Positions 36,437 through 43,118 of a stretch of DNA of 64,000 nucleotides are shown piece by piece (within the stretch, counting starts at the first letter, position 1; the number at the start of each line of letters is the position of its first letter). The stretch spans positions 310,001-374,000 of the forward strand of contig NZ_FOHQ01000002.1 in NCBI RefSeq assembly GCF_900111645.1. The letters are read 5' to 3'. This DNA comes from Methanococcoides vulcani. GTDB taxonomy: Archaea > Halobacteriota > Methanosarcinia > Methanosarcinales > Methanosarcinaceae. Made by a program: the position numbers and the translations under genes. The notes under the pieces were generated by a model that saw only the letters and a program-made list of their open reading frames with translations, did no database searches and was not told the origin of the DNA.

Positions 36437-36507
36437 ATCATATTTGATTTAATATGATGTAAACATTATCAATTTGGGTGGTAGAAATGTTGTTAATAAC
36501 ATACATT
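36437..36507 (+). promoter_or_regulatory. Two dyads in the operon leader, putative operators
   Basis: Dyad 1 is ATCATATT-TGATTT-AATATGAT (36437-36458), perfect 8-bp arms. Dyad 2 is AATGTTGTTA-A-TAACATACATT (36486-36507), 5+5-bp arms with one extra T. Both lie after the probable TATA box and before the Shine-Dalgarno GAGGTG near 36533. They may bind a metal or haem-responsive repressor, or fold in the mRNA leader. Function is inferred from symmetry only. Confidence 0.45.
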
Positions 36508-36545: not shown

Positions 36546-37220
36546 ATGAACATGGTACTTCTCACCGTTGTGGGGATACTGTTGGCCATTTTTCTATTTG
36601 GTATTAAGACCGGGATAGGCTGTGGATTTTCTAATCGCAGCACAAAAGAGATCCTTGCGATTGCAGGCAGCTATTTTATTTTATCACTGATAATTGGCAG
36701 TCTCATAGGATATGTGGACCAGTCCAATCTCGACCTTATTGCGAGCATGGGTATGTCTCTTCACGTCCTGGTTGCATTGCTCCTGATCGGGGCAGGCATC
36801 TATACCCAGAAACAGTGGAACTGTGGCTGTGATGTTTCTCATCGCACATTCCTTGTGATCTCCCTGCCCTGCCCTGTCTGCCTGACAGCACTCTTCATAT
36901 CCTGTATGCTTCTGGCAACATATATTGAGATAAGTGGGATCCTGATCGGACTGCTTGTGGGTAGTGTGTTCTTCATCTCTGTGGTTGCGTCTTCCCTTCT
37001 GTGCAAGATGCTGAACAAGACCCCGGAGACCCTTGGTAACGTCATGATGATCCTTGGTATCTACTATCTCATGGGCGCCATCATTGTGCCTGCTTACATT
37101 AAGACAAAACAGATGAACATTCCTGCGTATTCCGCACCGCCTGTGGAGATCCTTCCATTCGTGGCCTTTGCAGCACTGATTGCCGGGGGATTTGTTCTTG
37201 ATAAAATTAGGAGTAACTAA
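36546..37220 (+). CDS. DUF2162 membrane protein, putative transporter
   Basis: Six to seven hydrophobic segments. Cys-rich loops stand out: GIGCGFSN near the start, WNCGCDVSHRT and LPCPVCLTALFISC in the middle, suggesting metal or thiol chemistry at the membrane. The family resembles small metal/cofactor exporters and is normally found beside ExbB-like and DUF2149 proteins and a CobN homologue, exactly as here. GAGGTG precedes the ATG by about 7 nt. The stop is 2 bases before the ExbB-like gene. Confidence 0.8.
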   Translation: MNMVLLTVVGILLAIFLFGIKTGIGCGFSNRSTKEILAIAGSYFILSLIIGSLIGYVDQSNLDLIASMGMSLHVLVALLLIGAGIYTQKQWNCGCDVSHRTFLVISLPCPVCLTALFISCMLLATYIEISGILIGLLVGSVFFISVVASSLLCKMLNKTPETLGNVMMILGIYYLMGAIIVPAYIKTKQMNIPAYSAPPVEILPFVAFAALIAGGFVLDKIRSN

Positions 37221-37222
37221 AT

Positions 37223-37846
37223 ATGGCTATTGATTCTTCTTTGTTCCAGATCATGTATACTGCTTCATCAGCCCTGCTGTATCCTGTGGTAATACTTTTG
37301 ATCCTGGCAGTTACGGTATCGCTTGGTCTGATCGGTGAGTTCATCTCAGAATATGCAAAACGTCATCGAAATGTCAAGGAACTGGAACATATAGGCAGAA
37401 ACGTTCAGGAGAATGTCAACAATTCCTCCCACGATAATGCCGCATCACATCTTCTAAAACTTGACCAGAACCAGCTTGTTACATCTTTTGCACGTGATGC
37501 AGCAGAGCACCTGAAACAGAACTCGCTTTCCTCCATGGACTGGTTGTCCGAAGAATATGAAGTGAGAATGACAAAACGTCTGGAGCAGACCAAGATACTG
37601 TCTACGGTAGCCCCTATGCTCGGATTGATGGGAACTTTAATTCCATTGGGCCCTGCACTCATCGGCCTTGCACAGGGTGACATTCTCCAGCTTGCCAACA
37701 ATCTGATGATCGCCTTTGCCACTACAGTGCTTGGCCTTTTTGCAGGTATCGTGGGGTACACACTTACATTGATCAGGAAGAGATGGTACTGGCAGGATAT
37801 GGCAGACATCGATTATCTCGTTGATTCCATGGAGTGTAATCAATGA
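37223..37846 (+). CDS. MotA/TolQ/ExbB-type proton channel protein
   Basis: A 207-residue inner-membrane channel subunit: N-terminal helix at about 15-35, a long cytoplasmic region to about 120, then the conserved ILSTVAPMLGLMGTLIPLGP and IAFATTVLGLFAGIVGYTLT helices that define ExbB/MotA/TolQ. Such channels couple the proton gradient to mechanical movement. Archaea have no outer membrane, so a TonB role is not expected; the energised partner is probably the surface CobN-like protein. It overlaps the next start by ATGA. Confidence 0.87.
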   Translation: MAIDSSLFQIMYTASSALLYPVVILLILAVTVSLGLIGEFISEYAKRHRNVKELEHIGRNVQENVNNSSHDNAASHLLKLDQNQLVTSFARDAAEHLKQNSLSSMDWLSEEYEVRMTKRLEQTKILSTVAPMLGLMGTLIPLGPALIGLAQGDILQLANNLMIAFATTVLGLFAGIVGYTLTLIRKRWYWQDMADIDYLVDSMECNQ

Positions 37847-38199
37847 GAAGGAAACGGTATCATCGAACAGGCATCCTCTATGAGGAAGAAGACCAGAGCC
37901 CTCTTACCGGAGTGGCTAACCTCTTCGATGTTGCCATGGTGTTCTCAGTAGCTCTATTGGTAGCTCTTGTGATGTCTTACCAGCTACCTGAGCTGCTCAG
38001 TCCTACAGATATGACCATCGTAATGAATCCTGGCCAGGAGAATATGAAGATCATAGTCAAGGAAGGGCAGGAGATAGAAGTACTGAACATGACCGATCAG
38101 ATAGGCGGTGGTACCGGCGATGCTCTTGGAACCGCTTACAAGCTGGCGGATGGTCGTGTGATCTACGTTCCTGATTCCGGAAACGAAACGGGATCATGA
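37843..38199 (+). CDS. DUF2149 protein, ExbD-like single-span partner
   Basis: 118 residues: a charged cytoplasmic start, one transmembrane helix (VANLFDVAMVFSVALLVALVMSY) containing an Asp at its edge as in ExbD/MotB, and an external domain ending in a nucleotide-free strand-rich region. By size, topology and overlap with the ExbB-like gene it takes the place of ExbD. Experimental function of DUF2149 is not known to me. Confidence 0.78.
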   Translation: MRRKRYHRTGILYEEEDQSPLTGVANLFDVAMVFSVALLVALVMSYQLPELLSPTDMTIVMNPGQENMKIIVKEGQEIEVLNMTDQIGGGTGDALGTAYKLADGRVIYVPDSGNETGS

Positions 38200-38270
38200 T
38201 TCTTTCAAAAGTGTGTATGGAAACGAACAATAAGAAAATTGAATGAAAATGTGTAGATAATGAAAGTTTG

Positions 38271-38312
38271 AGACATCCCGGAACAGCCTCCAAGCAAAGT
38301 GCCGGGATGTCT
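38271..38312 (+). promoter_or_regulatory. Strong hairpin between the DUF2149 and CobN-like genes
   Basis: AGACATCCCGG (38271-38281) pairs perfectly with CCGGGATGTCT (38302-38312), 11 bp around a 20-nt loop, 11 bases before the CobN Shine-Dalgarno GGGTGG. No T run follows, so it is more likely an mRNA processing, stability or partial-termination signal that sets the CobN to channel ratio. Confidence 0.6.
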
Positions 38313-38334
38313 TACATATTATCGGGTGGATAAC

Positions 38335-41300
38335 ATGCGAAATATAAAACATCAATTATTACTATTAAGTGTATTGATTTTGCTGGCAGTTTCAATGCCA
38401 GTGGTATCGGCAGATGAAAACCAAACGAATGTAATGTTTGTGCTGGGCACGGATGTGAATGAAGCATCGTTAACAACTATGTCTTCGCACTCTAACATCA
38501 CATCCAACCTGACCGTAACGATCTTCAACAGTACCGAAATCGTTCCGGCAGGATTCAATTTCTCGAATTATTCTGTTATATTCATCGAATCACAGTCGGA
38601 GAGTGTTGTCAACGACTGGCAAGCGAACTTGACGTCTAATCTGACCACTGCAAAGGACAATGGCAGTGAGGTGATAGGATATAATCTCTCATCCGCTGTG
38701 GCCAATGTAGACCTGTATTCAAATGATTACACCGACATCGAACGGTACTGGGTACAGGGTGGCGACACCAACATGGAATCCATGCTCAAGTTCATGGGAC
38801 AGGAGTTCTGCGATGCATGGGCGAACGAGACCATTCCAGAACCTGTTATTCTGCAGTCCAAACAAAAGATCACCTATATTATCAACTCTGATGCCAGCAG
38901 GTACTATCTTTCTCAGGTCCTGTCAGAGAGAAGTGTGATCACAGACCGTTTCGATGTCACTGTAATGGATGGTGAAGAGGCTGCAGCAAACCTGACAGAT
39001 GTTTCTGACCAGGACGTTATCATGATGTATATGATCGGTGCCAATACGCTTCCGGAGTTCAAGGATGAACTTCTTGCTGCAAAAGCTAGTGGTACACAGA
39101 TCGGCATGTTTGGCATGAACGATGTGTATAACATCAGTACCATCGATATGAAGAACCCACCCCACAGTGCCATGCAGGATTACTTCTACAATGGTGGATA
39201 TGCGAACATGGAGAACTGGATTCGCTGCATAGGGGCAACTCTTGAAGAGGCCTACATCGAGTACTCTCCAGCAGGACCTCCATCGATTCCTAACAATGGG
39301 ATCTATCATCCAGATGCGTTCCCGAGGATCTTCGAGAACAGTTCAGAATACCTTGATTGGTACGCAGACAACGGATACAATGCATCTGCACCGACCATCG
39401 GTATAATCGCCTCCAGCAATATCGGAAAGACATCCATCGATTTCAATACCGATGATGAGATTATCAGGAATCTGGAATCAAAGGGATGTAATGTCATCTA
39501 TACCACCAAGAAGGTGTGTAGCGATGATGTGGAATATTTCACCAACAATGGTACAGTGCTTGTGGACTCCATAATCTCCCTGAAAGGGTTCTATTTCAAC
39601 TACTACCATCAGGATGAAGGTGTGGAATACCTGAAGGGTTACGATGTTCCTGTGATAAAAGCTGTGCTTGACTATTACAATACTCCTGATGAGTACAATG
39701 CCAGCGTACACGGAGTAAGCCCATCATCGCTCGCTTTCCAGGTGACCCAACCCGAGATCGATGGATGTATCGATTATATATGGATCGCTGGTAGGGCTAC
39801 AGACCCGGTCACCCAGCAGAAATACTATGAACCCCTGATGTACCAGTTGGACTGGATGTGTGACCGTGCGATCTCATGGGCAGAGCTTGGTCATGCCAGC
39901 AACGCCGATAAGAAGGTGACCATCATCTACTACAACCATGAAGGTGGCAAGAACAACATCGGTGCCAGCTACCTGGACATCTCTTCCAGTTTCACATTGC
40001 TGCTTGAACAGATGCGAACAGCAGGTTACGATGTAGGCAACGGTACCATTCCAAATGGCAGTGAGTTCATCGATCGTTTCATTGAGAGCAGGAATGTTGG
40101 ATCATGGGCGCCAGGTGAACTTGAGAAGGTTGTCAACTCAGGCAATGTCACGCTGGTACCAAAGGACGAATATCTTGCATGGTACAACACCCTGCCGCAG
40201 TCCGTTCGGGATGAGGTTGAAGCACGATGGGGTGAAGCACCAGGCAACATCATGGTGTATGAAGACAACTTTGTGATCCCCACAGTACAGCTTGGGAACA
40301 TCAACTTTATACCACAGCCGACCAGAGGCGACCTGTCCGATGAATCAGCCATGTACCACGACAAGGAACTGCCACCTACACACCAGTATCTTGCGACCTA
40401 TTACTGGATCAACAATGTCTATAATGCCGATGCCATGATCCATTTCGGTACGCACGGCACGCAGGAATGGCTGCCGGGCAAAGAGGTTGGCCTGTGGAAG
40501 TATGATTACCCATCCATCATGGTGGCAGATACACCTGTGGTATATCCATACATCATGGACAATGTTGGTGAGGGTACTCAGGCCAAACGCCGGGGCAATG
40601 CAGTGATCATAGACCACCTGGTTCCGGCAATAACAAATGCAGGACTGTATGGTGAACTGGCAACAATGCATGACAAGCTACATAGGTATGAAGAGGCCAA
40701 GAGTACCAATAATACTGCAATGATGGCACTCTATCGCGATAGTATGATCGGGCTTTACACAAATCTTTCAATGGAAAATGATCTTGGTGTAACTCCTGAT
40801 CAACTCAGGGCAATGACAGAAGATGATTATACGAACTTCATTTCAGTCACTCTCCATGACTATCTGCATAAACTGCAGGGTACGCTCATGCCTCTTGGAC
40901 TCCATACCTTTGGTGTCGCACCACAGGATGAGAAACTTGTCTGTATGGTCAAATCAATGCTTCGCAGCGGTTTCATTGATCACATAACAAATCTCTTTCC
41001 TTATGTCAGTGGACATGAAGATGATTGGGAGGTTGCAACCGAACAGCGTGCCAATGATTTGTTGAATGCCACATTACTCAATGGGACGGATGTTTCAACT
41101 GCTCAGTTAAATGTGCTGAACCTCACCGACGTGAACATCACGGCAGATCTGAATCTGGCAATCGAATATTCTGTATTCCTGAGCCAGACCTCTCGTGAGA
41201 TCGATGAGACATTGCATGCTCTCAATGCAGGATATATTGAGCCCGGTCCAGGAAATGATCCGATACGGAATCCGGAAGCTCTGCCAACAGGTAGGAACTT

Positions 41301-42939
41301 CTACAGTTTCGACCAGAGAAAGTTCCCTGATGTGGAAACAACAGCTATGGGTGCGACCCTTGCGGACCAGCTGGTGCAGCAGCACTATGACACACACAAC
41401 AACACCTATCCGAACAAGGTGGCTTATGTTCTCTGGTCTGTGGAGACAATGCGTCATCATGGACTCATGGAAGCTCAGATCTACTCTCTGCTTGGTGTCG
41501 AACCTGTACGAAGCTGGGGTAGGATCACAGGTTTTGAGGTTATTTCTCTGGAGAACATGACACATCCAAGGATCGATGTGGTCATTACACCTTCTGGACT
41601 GTACAGGGATACGTTCCCGTATCAGCTTGAGCTGATCGATGAGGCGGTCCGAACAGTTGCAGCACTCAACGAGACTAATCAAACGAACTATGTCAGGTGG
41701 AATTCCCTGAAGATGGAAGACGCACTTCTGGCCAGTGGGTACAATAACACCACGGCACAGGCGATCTCACAGTCCAGGATATTCAGTGAATCACCGGGTT
41801 CATACGGTACCGGACTTCCGGGTGTTGTAACTGCGAGTGAGACATGGGACAGTGAAGACAAACTTGCTGACCTGTACATGTCACGCATGTCCAACATCTA
41901 TGGGCAGGACATGTGGGGTGAGAGCTATGAAGACGTGTTCAGGATGAACCTGATGGATGTTGATGCAGCTGTACACAGTGATACCTCAAACCTGTACGGA
42001 CTCATCGATAATGATGACTTCTATCAGTACCTCGGAGGTCTTGGACTTGCGGTGAGGTCGCTGACAGGGGAGAATCCCGAAATGTATGTGGCCGACCTGA
42101 CAAGTGTGGATGATCCAGGGATCATTACCTTGAACGAAGCGTTCAGGAATGAATTGCGTGCACGGAACTTCAATCCTAAATGGATATCCGGAATGATGGA
42201 ATATGATTACGCCGGCGCCAGAGAATTCATGAAATTTACCGATAATCTGTGGGGCTGGGACGTCATGACACCCGACATGGTCACGGATTCTGATTGGAAT
42301 GAGATCTACGACATCTATGTTATGGATAAGTATGATCTTGATGTGGATGAGTTCCTCAAAACCGAGAATCCATATCAATATCAATCCATACTCACTAGAA
42401 TGATAGAGACTGACAGGAAAGAATACTGGGATGCATCGGATGAGACACTTCAGAACCTTGTGAGGGAATACGCCGAGTCTGTGGTTGAAGATGGTGTCAC
42501 GTGCTGTCACCATACCTGTGGAAATGCTCTGCTTAACGAGTACATACAGGGTATAATGTCCGTACCCGGAGTTGTGTCACAGGAAACCATCGATGAGTAC
42601 AACAGATTGATGGAAGAGGCCACACAGAGGAATGCTCAATCATCAGCGCCCAGTACACGCAGCAGCAGCGGATCGACTGCATCTGCTTCAATCGTCAATA
42701 GCACCAGCACAAGCAGTGATGATGGGGGATATGGAACTACAACCGACCAGCCAGCAGATGCTTCACAGCAAAGCACACCAGACAACTATGTTGAAGGGTA
42801 TGAAATGACAAAAGAATCCACAACAAGTGATTCAGCCTCGTCGTCTACATCCTTCTCCGGTGCTGATATTTTAGGCAGTGTGTTGGTAGTGTTAGCCGTT
42901 GCTGTCATAACTATCGGATTTAGAAGAAGGCGACTCTAA
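38335..42939 (+). CDS. Secreted, membrane-anchored CobN-like chelatase homologue
   Basis: 1534 residues. The signal peptide HQLLLLSVLILLAVSMPVVSA is followed by a body of the CobN/Mg-chelatase large-subunit family; the hallmark HFGTHGTQEWLPGKE is near residue 702. A Cys/His cluster VTCCHHTCGNALL lies near 1390. A Ser/Thr-rich stalk (about 1420-1500) and a final helix with RRRRL anchor the protein outside the cell. Classic CobN is cytoplasmic and inserts cobalt with CobS/CobT; export means a different job, such as removing metal from, or binding, external tetrapyrrole. ATG 38335 follows GGGTGG. Last gene of the operon. Confidence 0.88.
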   Translation: MRNIKHQLLLLSVLILLAVSMPVVSADENQTNVMFVLGTDVNEASLTTMSSHSNITSNLTVTIFNSTEIVPAGFNFSNYSVIFIESQSESVVNDWQANLTSNLTTAKDNGSEVIGYNLSSAVANVDLYSNDYTDIERYWVQGGDTNMESMLKFMGQEFCDAWANETIPEPVILQSKQKITYIINSDASRYYLSQVLSERSVITDRFDVTVMDGEEAAANLTDVSDQDVIMMYMIGANTLPEFKDELLAAKASGTQIGMFGMNDVYNISTIDMKNPPHSAMQDYFYNGGYANMENWIRCIGATLEEAYIEYSPAGPPSIPNNGIYHPDAFPRIFENSSEYLDWYADNGYNASAPTIGIIASSNIGKTSIDFNTDDEIIRNLESKGCNVIYTTKKVCSDDVEYFTNNGTVLVDSIISLKGFYFNYYHQDEGVEYLKGYDVPVIKAVLDYYNTPDEYNASVHGVSPSSLAFQVTQPEIDGCIDYIWIAGRATDPVTQQKYYEPLMYQLDWMCDRAISWAELGHASNADKKVTIIYYNHEGGKNNIGASYLDISSSFTLLLEQMRTAGYDVGNGTIPNGSEFIDRFIESRNVGSWAPGELEKVVNSGNVTLVPKDEYLAWYNTLPQSVRDEVEARWGEAPGNIMVYEDNFVIPTVQLGNINFIPQPTRGDLSDESAMYHDKELPPTHQYLATYYWINNVYNADAMIHFGTHGTQEWLPGKEVGLWKYDYPSIMVADTPVVYPYIMDNVGEGTQAKRRGNAVIIDHLVPAITNAGLYGELATMHDKLHRYEEAKSTNNTAMMALYRDSMIGLYTNLSMENDLGVTPDQLRAMTEDDYTNFISVTLHDYLHKLQGTLMPLGLHTFGVAPQDEKLVCMVKSMLRSGFIDHITNLFPYVSGHEDDWEVATEQRANDLLNATLLNGTDVSTAQLNVLNLTDVNITADLNLAIEYSVFLSQTSREIDETLHALNAGYIEPGPGNDPIRNPEALPTGRNFYSFDQRKFPDVETTAMGATLADQLVQQHYDTHNNTYPNKVAYVLWSVETMRHHGLMEAQIYSLLGVEPVRSWGRITGFEVISLENMTHPRIDVVITPSGLYRDTFPYQLELIDEAVRTVAALNETNQTNYVRWNSLKMEDALLASGYNNTTAQAISQSRIFSESPGSYGTGLPGVVTASETWDSEDKLADLYMSRMSNIYGQDMWGESYEDVFRMNLMDVDAAVHSDTSNLYGLIDNDDFYQYLGGLGLAVRSLTGENPEMYVADLTSVDDPGIITLNEAFRNELRARNFNPKWISGMMEYDYAGAREFMKFTDNLWGWDVMTPDMVTDSDWNEIYDIYVMDKYDLDVDEFLKTENPYQYQSILTRMIETDRKEYWDASDETLQNLVREYAESVVEDGVTCCHHTCGNALLNEYIQGIMSVPGVVSQETIDEYNRLMEEATQRNAQSSAPSTRSSSGSTASASIVNSTSTSSDDGGYGTTTDQPADASQQSTPDNYVEGYEMTKESTTSDSASSSTSFSGADILGSVLVVLAVAVITIGFRRRRL

Positions 42940-42944
42940 GTCAT

Positions 42945-42976
42945 GAACACCCATTCGGGTGTTCTTTTCTTTTTTT
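42945..42976 (+). terminator. Intrinsic-type terminator after the CobN-like gene
   Basis: GAACACCC-ATTC-GGGTGTTC is a perfect 8-bp hairpin (42945-42964) followed by TTTTCTTTTTTTT. It lies six bases after the CobN stop and clearly ends the four-gene operon. Confidence 0.85.
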
Positions 42977-43118
42977 TATTTCTCTGTTTTTCTCATTAAT
43001 TTGTTTTATTGCACAAATACCATCACGTAAAACAATTATAATTAAAAATAATTAAAGTTTGTTTTATTACGAATGAGTTTTTACTACTTCCTTATCTGAT
43101 CTTCTGGGGTTGATCAAA

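Follow-up and report, generated by a model that had tools for sequence, protein, structure and literature searches.

A four-gene cassette with a CobN-family protein and an ExbB-type channel

A stretch of 64,000 nucleotides from the archaeon Methanococcoides vulcani (contig NZ_FOHQ01000002.1 of RefSeq assembly GCF_900111645.1, positions 310,001 to 374,000; hereafter the window, whose numbering we use) carries four adjacent genes for a DUF2162 membrane protein, an ExbB-family channel subunit, a DUF2149 protein and a CobN-family protein. We lean toward the view that this cassette is an archaeal, one-membrane member of the BtuS/HmuS class, in which a surface CobN-like protein that handles tetrapyrroles is powered by ExbB-DUF2149, with a ligand that is likelier a corrinoid or cobalt than haem. 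BtuS is, as cited in PMC6460266, the term of Rodionov 2003 for the exported CobN class. HmuS is the CobN-like protein of the Bacteroidota hmu operon, which also encodes HmuY, a TonB receptor, the hypothetical protein HmuT, the ExbB-type HmuU and the DUF2149 protein HmuV (PMC10434189). Both BtuS and HmuS are thus already known, and archaeal homologues have been noted before and described as lacking an operon: a 2025 study of HmuS mentions archaeal homologues without complete hmu operons and of unclear use (PMC12583661), and a proteome study of Methanosarcina barkeri says likewise of BtuS (PMC10846266). We find that the archaeal homologues retain the energized core (the CobN-like protein, ExbB and DUF2149) and lose nothing but the outer-membrane parts. 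In a search of the open-access literature, with subscription literature outside its scope, we came upon no account of the archaeal cassette, no mention that it is without TonB/ExbD clients and no proposal of the exchange of motors considered below.

The first-pass annotation of this DNA had proposed a four-gene operon closed by a terminator, and positions, strand and Pfam domains confirm an operon-like cluster. The four frames are all open and lie compactly on the + strand: DUF2162 (36546 to 37220; PF09930, 1.9e-67, positions 1-223 of 223), an ExbB/TolQ/MotA-family proton channel subunit (37223 to 37846; PF01618, MotA_ExbB, 1.5e-10), DUF2149 of the HmuV family (37843 to 38199; PF09919, 3.2e-34) and the CobN-family protein (38335 to 42939; PF02514, CobN-Mg_chel, E = 0, 1165 bits, model positions 2-1090 of 1090). 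A gap of 2 bp separates DUF2162 from ExbB, and ExbB overlaps DUF2149 by 4 bp. From the DUF2149 stop it is 135 bp to the more plausible CobN start, an ATG at 38335 that gives a protein of 1534 amino acids, and 99 bp to an alternative GTG at 38299. A terminator-like 8-bp stem, GAACACCC-ATTC-GGGTGTTC, starts 6 bp past the CobN stop and leads into a T-run (42945 to 42977, + strand). Gene content also fits the archaeal origin that had been proposed, with an S-layer protein (PF07752) and, in the same genome, an acetyl-CoA decarbonylase/synthase-like cluster beside a second exported CobN gene (locus L007).

The CobN-family protein appears to be exported

The CobN-like protein had been credited with a signal peptide and a C-terminal anchor, and both its sequence and an excess of N-glycosylation sequons support this. 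Hydropathy analysis finds hydrophobic segments at both ends. The N-terminal one resembles a cleavable signal, with a predicted signal peptide MRNIKHQLLLLSVLILLAVSMPVVSA (38335 to 38412, + strand), and the C-terminal one is a hydrophobic helix, the predicted membrane anchor, followed by RRRRL (42868 to 42921, + strand). The protein has 33 sequons versus 16.0 expected (p = 0.0005, 2000 shuffles), whereas the two cytosolic CobN paralogues of the genome show no excess (4 versus 4.7 expected and 2 versus 4.4 expected). Among archaeal alignment rows, the median ratio of observed to expected sequons is 2.21 for 36 exported proteins and 0.43 for 9 cytosolic ones (Mann-Whitney p = 4.6e-6, a value that is indicative, since the rows are related). 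By signal peptide, anchor and sequon enrichment, the window protein tests as non-cytosolic; judging from its sequence, it appears to be exported and anchored on the outer face of the cytoplasmic membrane. It shares the PF02514 fold, an HxGxHG motif and a DDxxQ motif with the cobaltochelatase CobN that works with CobS/CobT or ChlI/ChlD. That enzyme, however, is cytosolic and ATP-driven, while the window protein is exported and has no AAA+ partner nearby.

ExbB and DUF2149 as a candidate motor for the exported protein

ExbB is the sole match to its family in the whole genome. Its transmembrane threonines T167 and T168 (37721 to 37726, + strand) are, together with T138, invariant in 66/66 archaeal and Bacteroidota sequences. 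DUF2149 is predicted to consist of one transmembrane helix and an extracytoplasmic beta domain. Its Asp29 (37927 to 37929, + strand), in the transmembrane motif NLFDxAMVF, is a candidate proton-carrying acid; it is kept in all 64 archaeal and Bacteroidota sequences, and six other bacterial DUF2149 rows have Asp or Glu at this position. The pair resembles the ExbB-ExbD, TolQ-TolR and MotA-MotB energizers in joining an ExbB-family channel with transmembrane Thr to a small partner with a transmembrane Asp. It differs from them in that DUF2149 lies outside the ExbD family and in that the proposed driven part is chelatase-like, not TonB, Pal or peptidoglycan. We propose that DUF2149 is the functional counterpart of ExbD.

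The archaeal ExbB and DUF2149 are clearly homologous to HmuU and HmuV (hhalign of archaeal DUF2149 versus Bacteroidota HmuV, probability 99.96%). With these two and a CobN anchored at both ends, the cassette resembles HmuS-HmuT-HmuU-HmuV (PMC12583661, PMC10434189), but it lacks HmuY/HmuR, TonB and an outer membrane. The first-pass annotation had compared the cassette to the hmu gene set; this is right for HmuS, HmuU and HmuV but not for HmuT. DUF2162 fills the HmuT slot without detectable homology, and the identity of the two was rejected by profile hidden Markov model and by hhalign (probability 2.9%).

The cassette is widespread in the phylum and not peculiar to this genome. Of 247 phylum genomes sampled, 79 encode DUF2149; DUF2162 scores above the cutoff in 69, and every one of these also has DUF2149. 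Control searches detect PF02514, PF01618, PF09919 and PF09930 in Methanosarcina acetivorans. In a neighborhood survey of 41 archaeal loci with 42 DUF2149 genes, ExbB adjoins every one (42/42), 38 have DUF2162 no more than 1.5 kb away, and 31 have a CobN on the same strand at a distance of up to 2.5 kb. ExbB and DUF2149 are likewise linked to an exported CobN in 6/6 bacterial loci examined. A tblastn search of plasmids with the window CobN led to pGLOV01 of Trichlorobacter lovleyi, the sole bacterial cassette found with all four genes, DUF2162-ExbB-DUF2149-CobN, in the same order. The T. lovleyi BtuS (pGLOV01/pSZ77) is also like the archaeal protein in its DDxxQ and CC[HD]HTC motifs, export signal and C-terminal anchor. 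Its surroundings differ: the archaeal cassette stands alone, whereas the T. lovleyi one comes after a tandem pair of cobalamin riboswitches (2e-26 and 1.9e-14) and a TonB receptor, has another, complete ExbB-ExbD-TonB set behind it and lies beside the cobamide genes cobT and bzaF.

The motors of cytosolic class I chelatases are the AAA+ proteins ChlI/ChlD or CobS/CobT, and there is no ATP outside the cell. The M. vulcani genome has four CobN-family genes, two cytosolic (loci L005 and L006) and two exported (the window and L007). ChlI/ChlD-type AAA+/VWA genes lie within ~12 kb of both cytosolic paralogues (on contig C5, those at 502-505 kb near the CobN at 511 kb and those at 604-607 kb near the CobN at 591 kb), and contigs C8 and C9, which carry the exported copies, have no match to the Mg_chelatase family (PF01078). 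ExbD (PF02472) and TonB were not found in this genome. Since the AAA+ genes are near the cytosolic CobNs and not the exported ones, and TonB and ExbD are missing, the simplest reading is that the proton pair powers the exported chelatase. With no TonB or ExbD, an outer-membrane receptor cannot be the client of ExbB-DUF2149 in this archaeon, and the full TonB energizer adjacent to the T. lovleyi cassette argues that the cassette's own pair has another client there. Both points support the earlier suggestion that, in a cell with one membrane, the channel acts directly on the CobN-like protein.

In the mechanism we propose, ExbB-DUF2149 would substitute for the AAA+ ATP motor of the exported CobN. 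The proton pair would open and close the CobN-like protein, so that the ligand is captured, processed or released, and DUF2162 would most likely pass the product, an ion or needed electrons across the membrane. We infer the physical coupling of ExbB-DUF2149 to CobN and, likewise, the substrate, the direction of the chemistry and the role of DUF2162. The head domain of HmuS shifts between states, and purified HmuS by itself makes only 1-2 turnovers (PMC12583661). A motor that cycles conformations would make sense of the two observations, and so few turnovers are expected if a partner is absent. The authors of a Porphyromonas gingivalis study go no further than to state that HmuT/U/V might affect HmuS activity (PMC13227078). 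Mesle et al., who described riboswitch-led hmu-like operons in Bacteroides fragilis, assigned HmuU/HmuV to the TonB receptor (PMC10100974). A possible, still tentative extension is that this is a class I chelatase run by proton-motive force: upon export, the CobN fold would have swapped its AAA+ motor for ExbB-DUF2149, and HmuU/HmuV would be the motor of HmuS, not of the TonB receptor. The archaeal cassette is a natural experiment that points to HmuS as the HmuU/HmuV partner, may explain why purified HmuS stalls and would revise the published view of HmuU/HmuV as serving the outer-membrane receptor. If true, a proton motor would allow energized tetrapyrrole chemistry or capture outside the cell.

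Active-site residues and riboswitches favor a corrinoid ligand

The best match of the window CobN in the PDB is HmuS (9d26, 6.9e-138), followed by CobN (7c6o, 4.2e-131). Like HmuS, it keeps the catalytic His538, within the motif HFGTHG (40441 to 40458, + strand; His at 40453-40455), and Glu577. The haem ligands of HmuS site 1 fail, however: Met79, conserved in 26/26 aligned HmuS rows, is Ile, and His254, conserved in 25/26, is Gly (Lys by another alignment). The HmuS sequence LSLDHxxEFMGG corresponds to NDDFYQYLGG, with His1209 replaced by Asp, Glu1212 by Gln and Trp1202 by Tyr. Gln1198 is also absent, and so is the Met-rich insertion of domain IV, where the window protein has 79 residues with 2 Met versus 235 with 24. 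By these residues, and by its CCHHTC motif, the window CobN-family protein is not HmuS.

The segment NDDFYQY (42010 to 42030, + strand) carries the DDxxQ motif. At the corresponding position, HmuS 1208-1212, the porphyrin enzymes HmuS and BchH have DHxxE/D, and DDxxQ is found in most CobNs of cob operons, in the window protein and in the BtuS proteins of T. lovleyi and a Comamonadaceae plasmid. The Comamonadaceae plasmid has a cobalamin riboswitch (2.4e-6) directly ahead of ExbB-DUF2149-CobN and no annotated TonB receptor nearby. DDxxQ, together with riboswitches directly ahead of two cassettes that bear it, favors a corrinoid-related substrate. For the CobN of the T. lovleyi cassette, the Geobacter lovleyi genome paper had already noted the lack of CobS/CobT and a possible relation to cobalamin (PMC3403914). 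From motif comparison, the likeliest ligand of the window protein is a corrinoid (a cobamide or a precursor) or its cobalt, ahead of haem. This gives a testable residue rule, DHxxE for porphyrins and DDxxQ for corrins; a search for Bacteroides BtuS1 as a test of it returned HmuS copies only. Haem, cobamide and F430-like ligands had all been suggested at the outset. Of these, the corrinoid is the one favored by the motif and the T. lovleyi riboswitches, the haem-site residues fail, and we found no evidence supporting F430 or Ni-tetrapyrrole use.

In a tree of 61 CobN-family proteins, the exported, ExbB-linked proteins (HmuS, bacterial BtuS and archaeal) and the cytosolic CobNs fall on opposite sides (SH-like approximate likelihood ratio test [SH-aLRT] support, 98-99), and the window CobN is placed among archaeal and bacterial BtuS and not with HmuS (SH-aLRT 98). 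The placement of HmuS is not firm: by approximately unbiased (AU) tests, trees that join HmuS to BchH (p = 0.155) or to the archaea alone (p = 0.313) are not rejected.

The same comparisons bear on the alternative that the window protein is a haem de-chelatase like HmuS, stripping iron from environmental haem at the surface with energy from the channel. The PDB match, the retained His538 and Glu577 and the kinship of ExbB and DUF2149 with HmuU/HmuV all fit this, and M. barkeri BtuS proteins respond to the Fe/S source (PMC10846266). Three exported archaeal CobNs (loci L072, L082 and L085) even have an HmuS-like DHxxE/T and a domain IV insertion of ~300 amino acids, not Met-rich; they branch within the archaeal group, so this likeness may be convergent. 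Given the missing haem-site residues and the grouping with BtuS, albeit with the alternatives that the AU tests leave unrejected, we consider a haem de-chelatase unlikely.

DUF2162 and the question of free metal

DUF2162 is a polytopic protein with seven predicted helices, modeled by AlphaFold with a predicted local distance difference test score (pLDDT) of 83.9. The Cys-rich loops noted in the first-pass annotation are real and conserved: K21, G25, D96 and P108-C109-P110-C112 (PCPxC) are invariant in 29 archaeal sequences, and GCG and C120 are kept in at least 90% of them. By the modeled helices and the positive-inside rule, these Cys loops probably face the cytoplasm. No PDB fold matches at E ≤ 0.001, and the best hits are like the major facilitator superfamily, with TM-scores below 0.4. 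We regard DUF2162 as a putative permease or redox/metal conduit. A tblastn search of plasmids with the window DUF2162 gave no match, although the T. lovleyi copy clearly belongs to PF09930; that copy is without the GCG Cys.

The window CobN has a CCHHTC motif (42502 to 42519, + strand) about 120 residues ahead of its C-terminal anchor. This motif is present in the exported archaeal rows, except that two HmuS-like rows have CCCxLCC instead and one truncated row was unscored, and T. lovleyi has CCDHTC. CC[HD]HTC is missing from the cytosolic rows, from 8 HmuS and from 5 further exported CobNs of bacteria. It thus occurs in rows where DUF2162 exists and in no row without DUF2162, an association that, the bacterial contrast apart, is confounded with ancestry.

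This pattern and the invariant Cys and Asp of DUF2162 would suit the scavenging of free metal, in which CobN would remove Ni, Co or Fe from a metallophore or metal-tetrapyrrole and the ion would enter through DUF2162. Methanogens have a high need for Ni and Co, and two bacterial loci point the same way. Plasmid pRUNSL01 of Runella slithyformis has ExbB-DUF2149-CobN within a hypABF...CDE hydrogenase-maturation cluster, with a TonB receptor and, in the slot of the missing DUF2162, a marginal NicO/DsbD_2-type membrane protein; this is possibly a nickel version of the cassette. An Azospirillum cassette has nikR nearby and is followed by a cobalamin riboswitch. Against this, we detected no known metal transporter homologous to DUF2162, the T. 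lovleyi copy does without its GCG Cys, and the predicted positions of CCHHTC (outside) and of the DUF2162 Cys (inside) show no direct relay. We judge metal scavenging improbable.

Evidence against an energized corrinoid handler

Several observations weigh against our view that ExbB-DUF2149 powers a corrinoid-handling CobN. It is chemically very difficult to take cobalt out of an intact corrin ring, which makes de-chelation less likely than capture, release or insertion. We found no direct evidence of ExbB-DUF2149-CobN coupling, and HmuS alone de-chelates somewhat in vitro. The structure model of DUF2149 (transmembrane helix 20-47) is of low confidence, and DUF2149 was rejected as ExbD by sequence: we detected no similarity, and its profile matches no ExbD chain in the PDB. 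The window holds no cobalamin riboswitch (RF00174), though archaeal BtuS members are not required to have one. The Azospirillum CobN has DHxxE despite the riboswitch alongside, which makes the motif rule imperfect, and the rule was derived on few sequences. The response of M. barkeri BtuS to the Fe/S source also belongs here. Finally, 11/42 archaeal ExbB-DUF2149 pairs have no neighboring CobN, and in two genomes (L083, 9419-13284; L086, 9356-13162) the pair lies directly behind an 873-amino-acid S-layer (PF07752) and CARDB protein with no CobN. Apparently, ExbB-DUF2149 can have other partners, and in L083 and L086 it may act on other surface proteins.

These last loci, together with the loss of the catalytic His in some cassette CobNs, would fit CobN being a chance neighbor, an unenergized binding protein beside a pair that powers something else such as S-layer gating, but the pair and an exported CobN recur together in two domains of life, and we hold this very unlikely. 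The His loss occurs in L078, L099 and L101, where HFGTHG is replaced by an FSIFS-type sequence, which suggests a non-catalytic role for those CobNs.

Leader sequence and other CobN genes

The 5′ leader of the cassette contains a palindrome, ATGTTGTTAATAACAT (36487 to 36502, no strand), a candidate operator that is mostly kept in 6/7 aligned loci of the genus. It has one exact copy in the genome and was rejected as a regulon marker, with 9 genome matches at ≤2 mismatches versus 11 for a reversed control.

Related genomes have up to six CobN-family matches each, mostly exported, and the cassette offers a concrete clue to the presence of several CobN paralogues in methanogens. The second exported CobN of M. 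vulcani (L007, 6052-12309) has 2085 amino acids and repeated N-terminal domains, lies far from ExbB and adjoins the acetyl-CoA decarbonylase/synthase-like cluster, as read by eye. One of the cytosolic CobN frames (L006, 7274-11032; C5, ~591-595 kb) has a single in-frame TAG at codon 348, where the relative L114 has Arg and no stop; this may be a sequencing error, a pseudogene or amber read-through. Clustered with this gene (L006, 11259-17933, and L172; C5, ~591-608 kb) are CbiK, NifD-like and NifH-NifK-fusion proteins, a BtuFCD-like transporter, CbiZ and ChlI/ChlD, possibly a locus for salvage or reduction of corrinoids or other tetrapyrroles.

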